From Meiothermus ruber DSM 1279 (GTDB taxonomy: Bacteria > Deinococcota > Deinococci > Deinococcales > Thermaceae), in NCBI RefSeq assembly GCF_000024425.1, contig NC_013946.1, forward strand, positions 2,108,001-2,172,000: a stretch of DNA of 64,000 nt, written 5' to 3'. The notes beneath the pieces were generated by a model. It did not search any database and was not told the DNA's origin. It saw nothing but the letters and a program-made list of their open reading frames with translations. Of the stretch, positions 38,263 through 41,423 are shown piece by piece. The number at the start of each line of letters is the position of its first letter. Position 1 is the first letter of the stretch. The translations under genes and the position numbers were made by a program.

Positions 38263-38618
38263 TGGTGGAGGCGGCGAGAGTCGAACTCGCGTCCAGAAGC
38301 CTATCCAGCAGACATCTACGTGTGTAGTTGGTGTTTAGTTGTCGTTCAGGCTTGCGCCACCAACAGCGGGCCTGAACCAAGCTCCGCGAAGGGTTCGCTC
38401 TTGGCTACGGAGCCTTGCCTCGAGCTAGCCGACTTTGGATCGTTCATTCAGTACGCCATCGGCTGGGCTTCTGAAGAACGTCGCTGGCTTAAGCAGCGAG
38501 GGCGTAGCTGTTGCTACGGACGTTGCCAGTTATGGCTTTGCCCATTTTTACGAGGCCATGGGCTACCTCGACACGCCGTACTGCCTTCAAGAGCCCCTGT
38601 CGAAACCGGAACGCCCCC
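38263..38618 (-). ncRNA. ssrA: Transfer-messenger RNA
   Basis: The RNA of about 356 nt rescues stalled ribosomes with SmpB. Its 5' end GGGGGCG pairs with CGCCTCC next to the encoded ACCA 3' end (acceptor stem, one G-U). GGTTTCGACAGGGG follows the 5' strand and GAGTTCGACTCTCGC forms the T-arm, both tmRNA hallmarks. The tag reading frame ends ...YALAA-TAA; with a Gly resume codon the tag is GNVRSNSYALAA (12 residues). The YALAA end is the usual protease-recognition tail. The choice of resume codon is my reading. Pseudoknot regions follow downstream. A promoter and terminator flank it. Confidence 0.95.
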
Positions 38619-38679: not shown

Positions 38680-39087
38680 ATGAGCAAGATCGACCCCACC
38701 CAGCTCGAGCGCGACTCACTGGTCAAAACCCTGGGCATCCGCATCCTGGAAGCCACCCCCCAAAAAGTGGTGGCCGAGATGGAGGTAACCCCCAGGCTGC
38801 ACCAGCCCTTTGGCTACCTACACGGCGGGGCCTCGGTGGCGCTGGCCGAGACGGTGGCCAGCATCGGTGCGTACCTGGCCGCCCCCGAGGGCCATACCAG
38901 CTTTGGCATGGAAATAAACGCCAACCACCTGCGCTCCATGCAGTCCGGCAAGGTCACAGCCACCGGCACTCCCCTGCACAGCGGCCGCACCACAGCCGTC
39001 TGGAGCGTGGAGATTCGTGACGAGCAGGGGCGTTTGGTCTGCATCTCCCGCTGCACCTTAGCCATCACTCCTATGCGTGCGGGTTGA
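38680..39087 (+). CDS. Hotdog-fold thioesterase (PaaI/YdiI-like)
   Basis: A 135 aa single hotdog domain that hydrolyses an acyl- or aryl-CoA thioester. The helix and strand pattern PRLHQPFGYLHGGASVALAETVAS is the PaaI/YdiI signature, with the catalytic acidic residue in ALAETVAS. EINANHLRSMQSGKVTATGTPLHSGRTTAVW also matches the family. The substrate is unknown; menaquinone precursor (DHNA-CoA) and phenylacetyl-type CoA esters are the usual options. It is divergent from ssrA. Its stop codon overlaps the -35 of the aromatic operon promoter. Confidence 0.88.
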   Translation: MSKIDPTQLERDSLVKTLGIRILEATPQKVVAEMEVTPRLHQPFGYLHGGASVALAETVASIGAYLAAPEGHTSFGMEINANHLRSMQSGKVTATGTPLHSGRTTAVWSVEIRDEQGRLVCISRCTLAITPMRAG

Positions 39088-39113
39088 CAAACCCCCGGCC
39101 GGGCCAATATGCT
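39084..39113 (+). promoter_or_regulatory. Promoter of the aromatic leader-aroF-tyrA operon
   Basis: -35 TTGACA (39084-39089, consensus), 18 bp spacer, -10 TATGCT (39108-39113). The expected start, about 39119-39123, coincides with the ATG of the leader peptide, so the leader peptide is probably read from a leaderless or near-leaderless mRNA. Confidence 0.7.
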
Positions 39114-39122
39114 CACTGGCAT

Positions 39123-39209
39123 ATGCAGACCTCGAGGGGTTTCGCAAGCCAAAATACCCACTTTTATGGGTACTTTTATTGGCCTGTCGTCCCCGTGAGG
39201 CCTGTGTAG
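39123..39209 (+). CDS. Aromatic leader peptide (28 aa) of the aroF-tyrA attenuator
   Basis: A short frame ATG 39123 to TAG 39207-39209, lying between a promoter and a terminator. The product has the run HFYGYFYWP: codons 14-20 (39162-39182) are Phe-Tyr-Gly-Tyr-Phe-Tyr-Trp, six aromatic residues of seven. Such clustering in a 28-codon frame directly before genes of aromatic amino acid synthesis is the classic sign of a regulatory leader peptide: ribosomes stall there when charged Phe-, Tyr- or Trp-tRNA is short. The codons also form a hairpin (TACCCA 39155-39160 with TGGGTA 39167-39172, extended by A/T and CC/GG pairs). Confidence 0.8.
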   Translation: MQTSRGFASQNTHFYGYFYWPVVPVRPV

Positions 39210-39237
39210 GCGTTTATCGCACCAATGCTTCCGGGGA
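39190..39237 (+). promoter_or_regulatory. Antiterminator of the aromatic attenuator
   Basis: TCCCCGTGAGG (39190-39200) can pair with CTTCCGGGGA (39228-39237) over 10 bp with one bulged T. The second segment is the left arm of the terminator, so the two structures exclude each other. The first segment starts 8 nt after the Trp codon of the leader peptide and lies before its stop codon, so a ribosome that does not stall would cover it and let the terminator form. GGCCT (39181-39185) with AGGCC (39198-39202) is a further competing stem. Confidence 0.6.
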
Positions 39238-39261
39238 GTTCCAAATCCCCGGAAGTTTTTT
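39228..39261 (+). terminator. Attenuator terminator before aroF
   Basis: CTTCCGGGGA (39228-39237) and TCCCCGGAAG (39246-39255) form a perfect 10 bp stem with an 8 nt loop, followed by TTTTTT (39256-39261). It lies 21 bp before the DAHP synthase ATG, so it must be bypassed for expression. Confidence 0.9.
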
Positions 39262-39282
39262 GTGTGCAAAGGAGGTCAGGCA

Positions 39283-40320
39283 ATGCTGATCATTTTGAAA
39301 CACGGTTCGGGGCCTCAAGAAGTGGAGTCGGTGGTGGCCGAGGTGCGCCGGGTGGGCTACCGGCCCCACGTCTCCGAGGGGGAACACACCACCCTGATCG
39401 GGGCCATTGGCAAGGGGCCGACCCCGGAGCTCATCGAGCATTTCCGCGCGCTATCGCCTGTGCAGGATGTTATTCCCATCTCCAAGCCCTACAAGCTGGC
39501 CTCCCTCGAGGTCTCCCCCAAACCCACCGTGCTGCGCTGGGATACCGGGGCCACCGGCGGCGGTGAGGTGATGATTGCCGCGGGGCCTTGCGGGGTGGAA
39601 AGCCTCGAGCAAACCCTCACCCCGGCCCGGTATGTGAAAAAGCACGGCGCCCAGATGCTTCGGGGCGGCGCCTTCAAACCCCGCACCTCACCCTACAGCT
39701 TCCAGGGGATGGGCCAGGAAGGGCTGGAAATTCTGGCCGAGGCCCGCCGGCAGACCGGCCTCCCCGTGGTGACCGAGGTGGTCTCCCCCGAGCAGGTCGA
39801 CCTGGTGGCCACCTATGCCGACGTGCTGCAAATTGGCGCGCGCAACGCCCAAAACTTCGCCCTTTTGCAGGCCGCCGGGCAGTCGGGGCGGGCGGTTTTG
39901 CTCAAGCGGGGCATGAGCATGACCCTGGAGGAGTTTCTGATGTCGGCCGAGTACGTGCTGGCCCAGGGCAATATGCGGGTCATTCTGGTGGAGCGCGGCA
40001 TACGCACCTTCGAGAAGTCCACCCGCTTCACCCTGGATGTCTCGGCGGTGCCGGTACTGAAAAGCCTGACCCACCTGCCGGTCTGGATCGACCCCTCGCA
40101 CGCCGCCGGTAAGCGCGACTGGGTGACCGCCCTGGCGCTGGCAGGCCTGGCCGCCGGCGCCGATGGGCTCATCGTGGAGACCCACCCCGAACCCGAAAAA
40201 GCCCAGTCCGATGCAGCCCAGCAGCTCAACGAAGCCCAGTTTGCGGATATGATGAGCCGGGTAAAGGCCCTGCTGCCGGCCCTGGGACGCCGGCTAACCC
40301 GCGCCCTCGAGCCCGCCTGA
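39283..40320 (+). CDS. aroF: 3-deoxy-7-phosphoheptulonate (DAHP) synthase
   Basis: The 345 aa enzyme condenses phosphoenolpyruvate and erythrose 4-phosphate, the entry step to aromatic amino acids. Residues 1-70 form a ferredoxin-like regulatory domain (MLIILKHGSGPQEVESVV) as in Thermotoga-type DAHP synthases. The type I beta catalytic barrel follows: AAGPCGVES, MLRGGAFKPRTSPYSFQGMG, VVTEVVSPEQVDLV, DVLQIGARNAQNFALL, LLKRGMSMTLEEFL and WIDPSHAAGKR. ATG 39283 follows GGAGG. Expression is probably set by the upstream attenuator, with tyrA 20 bp downstream. The gene symbol is generic for this family. Confidence 0.94.
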   Translation: MLIILKHGSGPQEVESVVAEVRRVGYRPHVSEGEHTTLIGAIGKGPTPELIEHFRALSPVQDVIPISKPYKLASLEVSPKPTVLRWDTGATGGGEVMIAAGPCGVESLEQTLTPARYVKKHGAQMLRGGAFKPRTSPYSFQGMGQEGLEILAEARRQTGLPVVTEVVSPEQVDLVATYADVLQIGARNAQNFALLQAAGQSGRAVLLKRGMSMTLEEFLMSAEYVLAQGNMRVILVERGIRTFEKSTRFTLDVSAVPVLKSLTHLPVWIDPSHAAGKRDWVTALALAGLAAGADGLIVETHPEPEKAQSDAAQQLNEAQFADMMSRVKALLPALGRRLTRALEPA

Positions 40321-40340: not shown

Positions 40341-41423
40341 ATGATGAAGCCCTTGTTTGGTAAAGTCGGCATTTTTGGCATTGGACTCCTGGGTGGCAGC
40401 GTGGCCTTAGGGCTGCGCGAACGCTTTTTAGCCGAGGAAATTCACGCCTACGACCCCGACCCTGGAGCCCTCGAGGATGCCCTGGCCCTTCAGGTGGTGG
40501 ACAGGGTACACGCCTCGCTGGGCAGTTGGGTGGGCGACCTCGAGCTCGGGGTGCTGGCCGCTCCGGTGGGGGTGCTGGTCAGCGAGGGCCGGAAGCTGGC
40601 GCAGTTTGCCAGCCCGCGCACCATCTGGTTCGATGTGGGCAGCGTCAAGCAGCCGGTGGTGGAGGCGCTCACCGGGGTTCTGCCCAACTTTGTGGGCTCC
40701 CACCCCATGGCCGGTAGCGAAAAAGCCGGGGTGGAGGCGGCCCACGCCGGTTTGCTGCAGAATGCCGTCTGGGTCATTACCCCAACCACCGGCACAGCCC
40801 CGAGTGCCCTCGAGGCCGTGCGCAGCCTGGTGCAGAACCTGGGGGCCTATCCCCTGGAGATGCCCCCGGGTCTGCACGACCGGCTGGTGGCCCGCATCTC
40901 GCACCTGCCCTACCTGCTGGCGGTGGGGTTGAACCGGCTGGTGGCCCAGGATCCTCACCAGGATCTGCTGATGTTCCTGGCCGCGGGGGGCTTCCGCGAC
41001 CTAACCCGGGTGGCCTCGGGCTCGCCCCGCATGAGCCGGGACATGGTGGTAGCCAACAAAGAGGCCCTGCGCGCGGCCATCGAAGACCTGTGGGCGGTGA
41101 TGCTGGAGCTGGAAAACCTGCTCGAGCAGCCCGAAGATTTACTCGAGGTGGCCCTGGAGGCCAAGCGCACCCGCGACTCGCTGCCCATCGTCAAGCGCAG
41201 CCTGCTGCCGGTGATGAACGAACTGGTGGTGCAGGTGCCCGACAAACCGGGGCAAATCGCCACCGTCTCCACCGCACTGGGCAACGCCGGGGTGAATATC
41301 AAAAACTTCGAGGTGCTGGCCATCCGCGACGAAGGGGGGGCCATCCGCATGGGCTTTGCCACCCCCGAAGAACGCGAGCAGGCCCGCCAGATTCTGGAGG
41401 GCATCGGCTACAAGGTGCGCTAG
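40341..41423 (+). CDS. tyrA: Prephenate dehydrogenase with C-terminal ACT domain
   Basis: This 360 aa enzyme oxidises prephenate to 4-hydroxyphenylpyruvate, the tyrosine branch. The NAD-binding start is GKVGIFGIGLLGGSVALGL, followed by WFDVGSVKQPVV, VGSHPMAGSEKAGVEAA, and the helical domain ARISHLPYLLAVGL and GFRDLTRVASGSP. Residues about 288-360 are an ACT domain (ELVVQVPDKPGQIATVSTAL, GNAGVNIKNFEVLAI) that likely binds tyrosine for feedback control. It is the second gene of the attenuated operon. It ends 7 bp before the convergent phosphoesterase stop. Confidence 0.93.
   Translation: MMKPLFGKVGIFGIGLLGGSVALGLRERFLAEEIHAYDPDPGALEDALALQVVDRVHASLGSWVGDLELGVLAAPVGVLVSEGRKLAQFASPRTIWFDVGSVKQPVVEALTGVLPNFVGSHPMAGSEKAGVEAAHAGLLQNAVWVITPTTGTAPSALEAVRSLVQNLGAYPLEMPPGLHDRLVARISHLPYLLAVGLNRLVAQDPHQDLLMFLAAGGFRDLTRVASGSPRMSRDMVVANKEALRAAIEDLWAVMLELENLLEQPEDLLEVALEAKRTRDSLPIVKRSLLPVMNELVVQVPDKPGQIATVSTALGNAGVNIKNFEVLAIRDEGGAIRMGFATPEEREQARQILEGIGYKVR

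Follow-up and report, generated by a model that had tools for sequence, protein, structure and literature searches.

A predicted leaderless leader-peptide attenuator ahead of aroF-tyrA in Meiothermus ruber and other Thermaceae

The aroF-tyrA locus and its leader

The window analysed here is a 64,000-nucleotide stretch of the genome of Meiothermus ruber DSM 1279, a single contig of 3,097,457 bases. The closest named relatives belong to Meiothermus, and the DAHP synthase encoded in the window stands at 97% against that of M. taiwanensis. This enzyme, which carries an N-terminal ferredoxin-like domain, is encoded directly ahead of tyrA, and the region between a thioesterase gene and aroF holds the following features.

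38680-39087, plus strand: thioesterase gene (open reading frame), upstream of the leader and co-directional with it
39084-39113, plus strand: promoter, TTGACA (39084-39089), 18-nt spacer and TATGCT (39108-39113), read directly and with conserved TTGAC spacing
39123-39209, plus strand: leader ORF, predicted to be leaderless, 28 codons, MQTSRGFASQNTHFYGYFYWPVVPVRPV, with ATG at 39123 and stop codon TAG
39123-39139, plus strand: region 1, the 5' side of the 1:2 (protecting) hairpin, including the start codon, from folds
39162-39182, plus strand: regulatory codons F-Y-G-Y-F-Y-W (codons 14-20), a conserved aromatic run
39190-39207, plus strand: region 2, with two alternative partners, region 1 or the left arm of the terminator
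39218-39222 with 39262-39266, plus strand: outer helix around the terminator, CGCAC with GTGTG, from covariation
39227-39261, plus strand: regions 3 and 4, predicted intrinsic terminator, 11-bp stem, 8-nt loop and T6 at 39256-39261
39269-39275, plus strand: Shine-Dalgarno sequence AAGGAGG of the DAHP synthase gene, read directly
39283-40320, plus strand: aroF-type DAHP synthase (3-deoxy-7-phosphoheptulonate synthase; NF006421, 470 bits; TIGR01361, 376 bits; PF18152 and PF00793)
40341-41423, plus strand: tyrA, prephenate dehydrogenase with a C-terminal ACT domain (PF02153, PF20463, PF01842)

Upstream of the thioesterase gene, Rfam places a tmRNA gene on the minus strand (38263-38618); the mechanical ORFs called over it are not genes.

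The promoter matches the consensus at 10 of 12 positions; 3 kb of sequence holds two sites of this quality, where shuffled sequences average 0.2. The predicted transcription start, at about 39119-39122, would leave a 5' UTR of roughly 0-4 nt. A sequence-only reading made before this analysis had put the start at the leader ATG itself; by the present prediction it would lie near the ATG, not necessarily exactly at its A. The promoter, the 28-codon ORF, its FYGYFYW run and a hairpin formed by the aromatic codons themselves (TACCCACTTTTATGGGTA, 39155-39172) were all found where that reading had located them. The run stands out: the window holds 493 ORFs that begin with ATG and span 8-45 codons, and of these the leader alone has six aromatic residues in seven, the runner-up having four. 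A codon-based test gave a pN/pS of 0.57-0.61 for the leader, a value that is not decisive because of the constraint from the overlapping RNA structure.

The leader RNA (39123-39282) folds with -72.1 kcal/mol (z = -6.2), and none of 200 shuffles was as stable. Region 2 pairs with region 1 through 39191-39207. The same strand can act as an antiterminator, TCCCCG-T-GAGGC (39190-39201), which forms 11 pairs and one bulge with the left arm of the terminator, GCTTCCGGGGA-GTTCCAAA-TCCCCGGAAGT followed by T6. Both the terminator and the upstream segment able to pair with it had been proposed earlier and are confirmed here, the stem with 11 rather than 10 bp.

The outer helix around the terminator seems to be conserved with some paired changes, which is suggestive only: 82.5% of its cells in the alignment are paired, two pairs changed on both sides, and its covariation score was matched by 3 of 500 shuffles. 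It sits past the T-run and adjoins the Shine-Dalgarno sequence; its version in L013 is GCGCAAAG/CTTTGCGC.

Conservation of the leader in Thermaceae

We searched 111 genomes of the class with the DAHP synthase protein and then compared the upstream regions. The Thermaceae orthologue set comprised 45 genomes, 17 from Meiothermus or Calidithermus and 28 of Thermus type, among them M. taiwanensis, M. hypogaeus, M. luteus, M. rufus, M. granaticius, Calidithermus chliarophilus, C. roseus and many Thermus species. All 45 have the same layout, in which a TTGAC promoter is followed by a leader ORF that contains a Phe/Tyr run and has the antiterminator strand at its end, then by a GC-rich hairpin and aroF. 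The TTGAC lies 38-41 nt ahead of the leader ATG in every case; the 5' UTR can thus be a few nucleotides at most, with no space for a Shine-Dalgarno sequence. The leaders are 21-33 codons long, and frame, start context and stop are kept throughout. They follow two patterns, (F/Y)(F/Y)GYFYWP..PVRxA in Meiothermus/Calidithermus, where GYFYW is present in 16 of 17, and MRxxGRYFGFYYPAGGALRSA in Thermus, where [YHPQF][FY]GFY is present in 28 of 28.

The RNA pairings are equally general. A hairpin with a stem of 9-14 bp lies between leader stop and gene in all 45 genomes, and the duplex of the leader end with the left arm of this hairpin has an energy between -16.8 and -30.4 kcal/mol in each. The start codon and first nucleotides of the ORF pair with the last codons of the same ORF, again in 45 of 45. 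The strands involved are TCCCCG-T-GAGGC / GCTTCCGGGGA / TCCCCGGAAG in Meiothermus and GGGGGCGCCC / GGGCGCCCCC / GGGGGCGCCC in Thermus, where GGGGGCGCCC pairs with GGGCGCCCCC as the antiterminator. Meiothermus and Thermus thus have no stem sequence in common and the same mutually exclusive topology. In L015, L017 and L018 the left arm is altered to CCTCCGGGG, and the antiterminator pairing is kept. The sequence-only reading had staked itself on finding the aromatic run and the pairing conserved in Meiothermus and Thermus, as they are in all 45 genomes. It had also called for a test of compensatory base changes. Pairing is maintained across unrelated stems; covariation within clades is modest and does not decide the matter by itself (two pairs changed on both sides, a score reached by 32 of 500 shuffles), and no antiterminator pair changed on both sides in the Thermus clade. 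This modest signal reflects how little the pairs vary inside each clade.

A Phe/Tyr run precedes the DAHP synthase gene in 45 of 45 genomes, whereas Trp is confined to Meiothermus/Calidithermus, where it comes last in the run. The Trp codon is missing from the core of all 28 Thermus-type leaders (YFGFYYP), and in M. granaticius (L015) Arg takes its place (GYFYRP). In one relative (G036; locus L135, G036:C76), only the first codons of aroF and part of its later sequence survive, and the attenuator is kept, now directly ahead of tyrA. Its leader, MQAHRGKPGQTRSFGYSYWPAVPVGLA, has the core SFGYSYWP, in which both Tyr are retained and Ser replaces one Phe. The universal Phe and Tyr codons, the patchy Trp, the leader of G036 and a separate WWW leader ahead of trpE (see below) together suggest that Tyr and Phe are the main signals, as far as codon content can tell. 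The earlier suggestion that one leader senses a shortage of all three aromatic amino acids is not supported as it was put, and we dropped Trp as an equal third signal given that its codon is not conserved in Thermus.

Ribosome position and the proposed switch

The leader is very probably a ribosome-mediated transcription attenuator of the aroF-tyrA operon, carried on an mRNA predicted to be leaderless, with a 5' UTR of about 0-4 nt. A 70S ribosome would load on the 5'-terminal AUG with the polymerase still close. When Phe and Tyr are plentiful, it would reach the UAG and cover region 2, the terminator at 39227-39261 would form and transcription would stop. Under a shortage of charged tRNA-Phe or tRNA-Tyr, it would stall in the FYGYFYW run and leave region 2 free to pair with the emerging left arm of the terminator, so that the polymerase would continue into aroF and tyrA. 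An ORF on which no ribosome has loaded would fold on itself, region 1 pairing with region 2 and enclosing the start codon, and the terminator would again form.

Masking folds, in which the RNA under the ribosome is omitted, agree with this scheme in silico. When the ribosome was placed at the first aromatic codon, 44 of the 45 leaders formed the antiterminator in the nascent RNA, L005 being the sole exception. With the ribosome at the stop codon, no antiterminator pairs remained and the terminator was formed in 45 of 45, and the full, ribosome-free RNA likewise folded into the terminator in all 45. A ribosome stalled at the final aromatic codon, which is Trp in Meiothermus, left 6-9 antiterminator pairs (8 of 11 in the window), a statement that is soft because the assumed footprint of 13 nt is a rough value. 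Among the 45 leaders we found no conserved Trp codon at a position that would free region 2. In the full-length stalled RNA, the terminator often still outcompetes the antiterminator at equilibrium. The switch must therefore be kinetic, with the antiterminator forming first, as in trp. Both the comparison and the masking folds thus support the proposal, made from the single sequence, that DAHP synthase and prephenate dehydrogenase are under ribosome-mediated attenuation by a leaderless leader.

The step at which the hairpin acts deserves attention for Thermus. The T-run after the stem is strong in Meiothermus, where T6-T7 directly follows a GC stem of 10-11 bp. It is weak in Thermus, where it begins about 4 nt past the stem (e.g. 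AAGGTTTTT); the hairpins there are followed by AAGG(C/T)TTTT and, within a few nucleotides, by the Shine-Dalgarno sequence. Termination in Thermus could consequently be weaker or partly translational. Such an arrangement would fit translational attenuation, in which the target of the hairpin, in Thermus at least, is the ribosome-binding site of aroF. The compact Meiothermus stem with its immediate T-run argues against it, and the Shine-Dalgarno sequence lies outside the hairpin in both clades alike, so that we consider this unlikely.

The leader might also be read as a peptide. FYGYFYWP and FGFYYP are conserved as peptides, as are the terminal PVRSA and LRSA, which would suit a nascent chain that arrests the ribosome on free Phe or Tyr in the manner of TnaC, rather than codons that sense tRNA charging. 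Yet the order of the codons shifts while the aromatic content stays (FYGYFYW, FFGYFYW, FGYFYFYW, FLGYFYR, YFGFYY), and the conserved C-terminal residues are accounted for by the base pairing of the ORF end with its start. Arrest by the peptide is therefore quite improbable.

Terminators are common, and the hairpin lies 140 nt downstream of the co-directional thioesterase gene (38680-39087); it could be merely the terminator of that gene, or a constitutive damper, with the short ORF incidental. The promoter that intervenes between gene and hairpin, the retention of the aromatic ORF, stop position and competing second strand in 45 of 45 genomes despite different stem sequences, and the survival of the attenuator ahead of tyrA after the loss of aroF make this scarcely credible. 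It was because the leader and its competing strand are conserved that a constitutive terminator of the upstream gene was rejected. A metabolite riboswitch or T-box binding an aromatic amino acid or tRNA directly, which the strong conserved structure ahead of a biosynthesis operon might bring to mind, can be dismissed, as tmRNA was the sole Rfam family above the gathering score in the window, with no T-box or other match, and the structure is built from the ORF's own codons and, in contrast to what a conserved aptamer would show, is wholly different in the two clades.

Related leaders and known attenuators

Three other operons of the same genome have predicted leaderless leaders followed by terminators, with an architecture like that of aroF and codons matching the amino acids of each pathway. 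They stand before trpE (MVPIALVKGWWWPG, with WWW; L128), ilvB (MLLPSSLILTVVGLVITGPRGDLV, in which 12 of 24 residues are Leu, Ile or Val; L141) and leuC (MPTWVKQPLLSPARGV; L143). Predicted leaderless leaders with a terminator were also seen before leuC in Calidithermus and ilvB in Thermus. Leaderless attenuation thus looks like the ordinary mode of control for the amino acid operons of Thermaceae, the aroF leader being one of a set. The aroF element itself is single. The pattern GGNTAYTTYTAYTGG has one further occurrence in the genome, within unrelated coding sequence, so that no second copy was found, and covariance model R1 gave strong matches at aroF/tyrA only, with weak ones at the leuC leader of Calidithermus and the ilvB leader of Thermus. 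No such leader precedes pheA in the same genome, and no aromatic leader was found in Thermaceae upstream of the second DAHP synthase gene, a fusion with chorismate mutase (L002). The aroF leader therefore does not gate the whole entry step of the pathway, contrary to what had been supposed from the sequence of this locus.

A tentative extension, to which we give somewhat less than even credence, concerns timing. The AUG pairs with the end of its own ORF once that end is transcribed (about 60-85 nt), and the leader might accordingly be a one-chance timed switch, translated only by a 70S ribosome that loads within the first seconds. Such a switch would read the rate of leaderless initiation as well as tRNA charging, and it might be a general scheme in Thermaceae, covering aroF-tyrA, trpE, ilvB and leuC.

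Several other elements came to light near these genes. The palindrome TGGTATACCA occurs in the promoters of the second DAHP synthase gene (L002) and leuC (L143), with a shorter form, GGTATACCAAA, in the ilvB promoter (L141), and is absent from the aroF-tyrA promoter. It has eight sites in the genome, against one for a reversed control pattern, and is a candidate binding site for a repressor or other regulator of amino acid genes.

A different, strongly conserved aroF leader was seen in L024, L028, L030, L034, L048 and L052-L057 (family f4) and in L058-L060, L065, L066 and L068-L070 (family f5). It has a predicted leaderless ATG, often exactly 10 codons ahead of an in-frame internal ATG or GTG led by a Shine-Dalgarno sequence, and a peptide of the form M...(R/K)GGxx(M/V)(D/E)DGY(G/P/D)Y; no clear terminator follows, and in L055 the leader extends over the start of aroF. 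It may act on translation or as an arrest peptide. The aroF leader also differs from the Thermaceae one in Marinithermaceae- and Trueperaceae-like genomes. In L079, L081 and L082 (family f3), an aromatic leader that is predicted to be leaderless precedes the DAHP synthase fused to chorismate mutase; it reads MQNAYWYTT, MQATSYFFN or AYWYT, and hairpins resembling terminators come after it.

The aroF leader would extend leader-peptide control of shikimate pathway entry to the whole of the Thermaceae, in a leaderless form with initiation that dispenses with a Shine-Dalgarno sequence. Meiothermus and Thermus offer a clean natural comparison, two unrelated RNA sequences with one logic, and the relative in which the switch outlived aroF and stands before tyrA is a test of the amino acid that counts. 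The RNA polymerase and ribosomes of Thermus are standard structural models, which would allow a study, on its natural template, of how a leaderless 70S ribosome couples to a polymerase close by.

With the trp, pheA and his attenuators, the aroF leader shares codons for the product amino acid, a 1:2 hairpin and mutually exclusive 2:3 and 3:4 pairings. It differs from them in its predicted leaderless start, with the start codon within the 1:2 stem, in the placement of region 2 within the leader ORF, ahead of its stop codon, and in a mixed Phe/Tyr(/Trp) run that would gate DAHP synthase and tyrA. The trpE leader of the same genome (L128) resembles it in the predicted leaderless start, compact ORF and terminator and differs in its WWW codons and its pathway. 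An attenuator has reportedly been described for trpE of Thermus thermophilus. A search of the open-access literature, which leaves out subscription journals, returned no earlier aromatic attenuator from Deinococcus-Thermus. Leaderless initiation from a -10 element adjoining the ORF is a common and tested mode in this phylum, and an estimated one-third of Deinococcus genes are leaderless (PMC12340547). Leader ORFs at the 5' end of the transcript are known from trpL of Sinorhizobium meliloti (PMC7298713) and from leuL, trpL and ilvL of Streptomyces lividans (PMC8079986), for other amino acids and genes.

The expectation that the element belongs to no named RNA family stands in that Rfam has no match; attenuators of DAHP synthase genes are nonetheless known elsewhere (PMC4046766, PMC11802643, PMC8632094). 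The leader closest in target is aroR before aroF of Corynebacterium glutamicum, with a Phe-Tyr-Phe run (Neshat et al. 2014, via PMC11802643; PMC4046766). This F-Y-F leader is reported to respond to Phe and not to Tyr (PMC11802643); it resembles the Thermaceae leader in target gene family and kind of control and belongs to another phylum and operon. Phe-dependent attenuation has also been proposed for uORFC-13-1 of Acholeplasma aroF, which resembles the present leader, by its published description, in a uORF with an adjoining terminator before a DAHP synthase gene and differs in sensing Phe only, in structure and in phylum, and is itself a prediction (PMC8632094). Attenuators of DAHP synthase have thus already been described in other phyla, and the Thermaceae case adds, as a modest twist, a predicted leaderless start that closes on itself.
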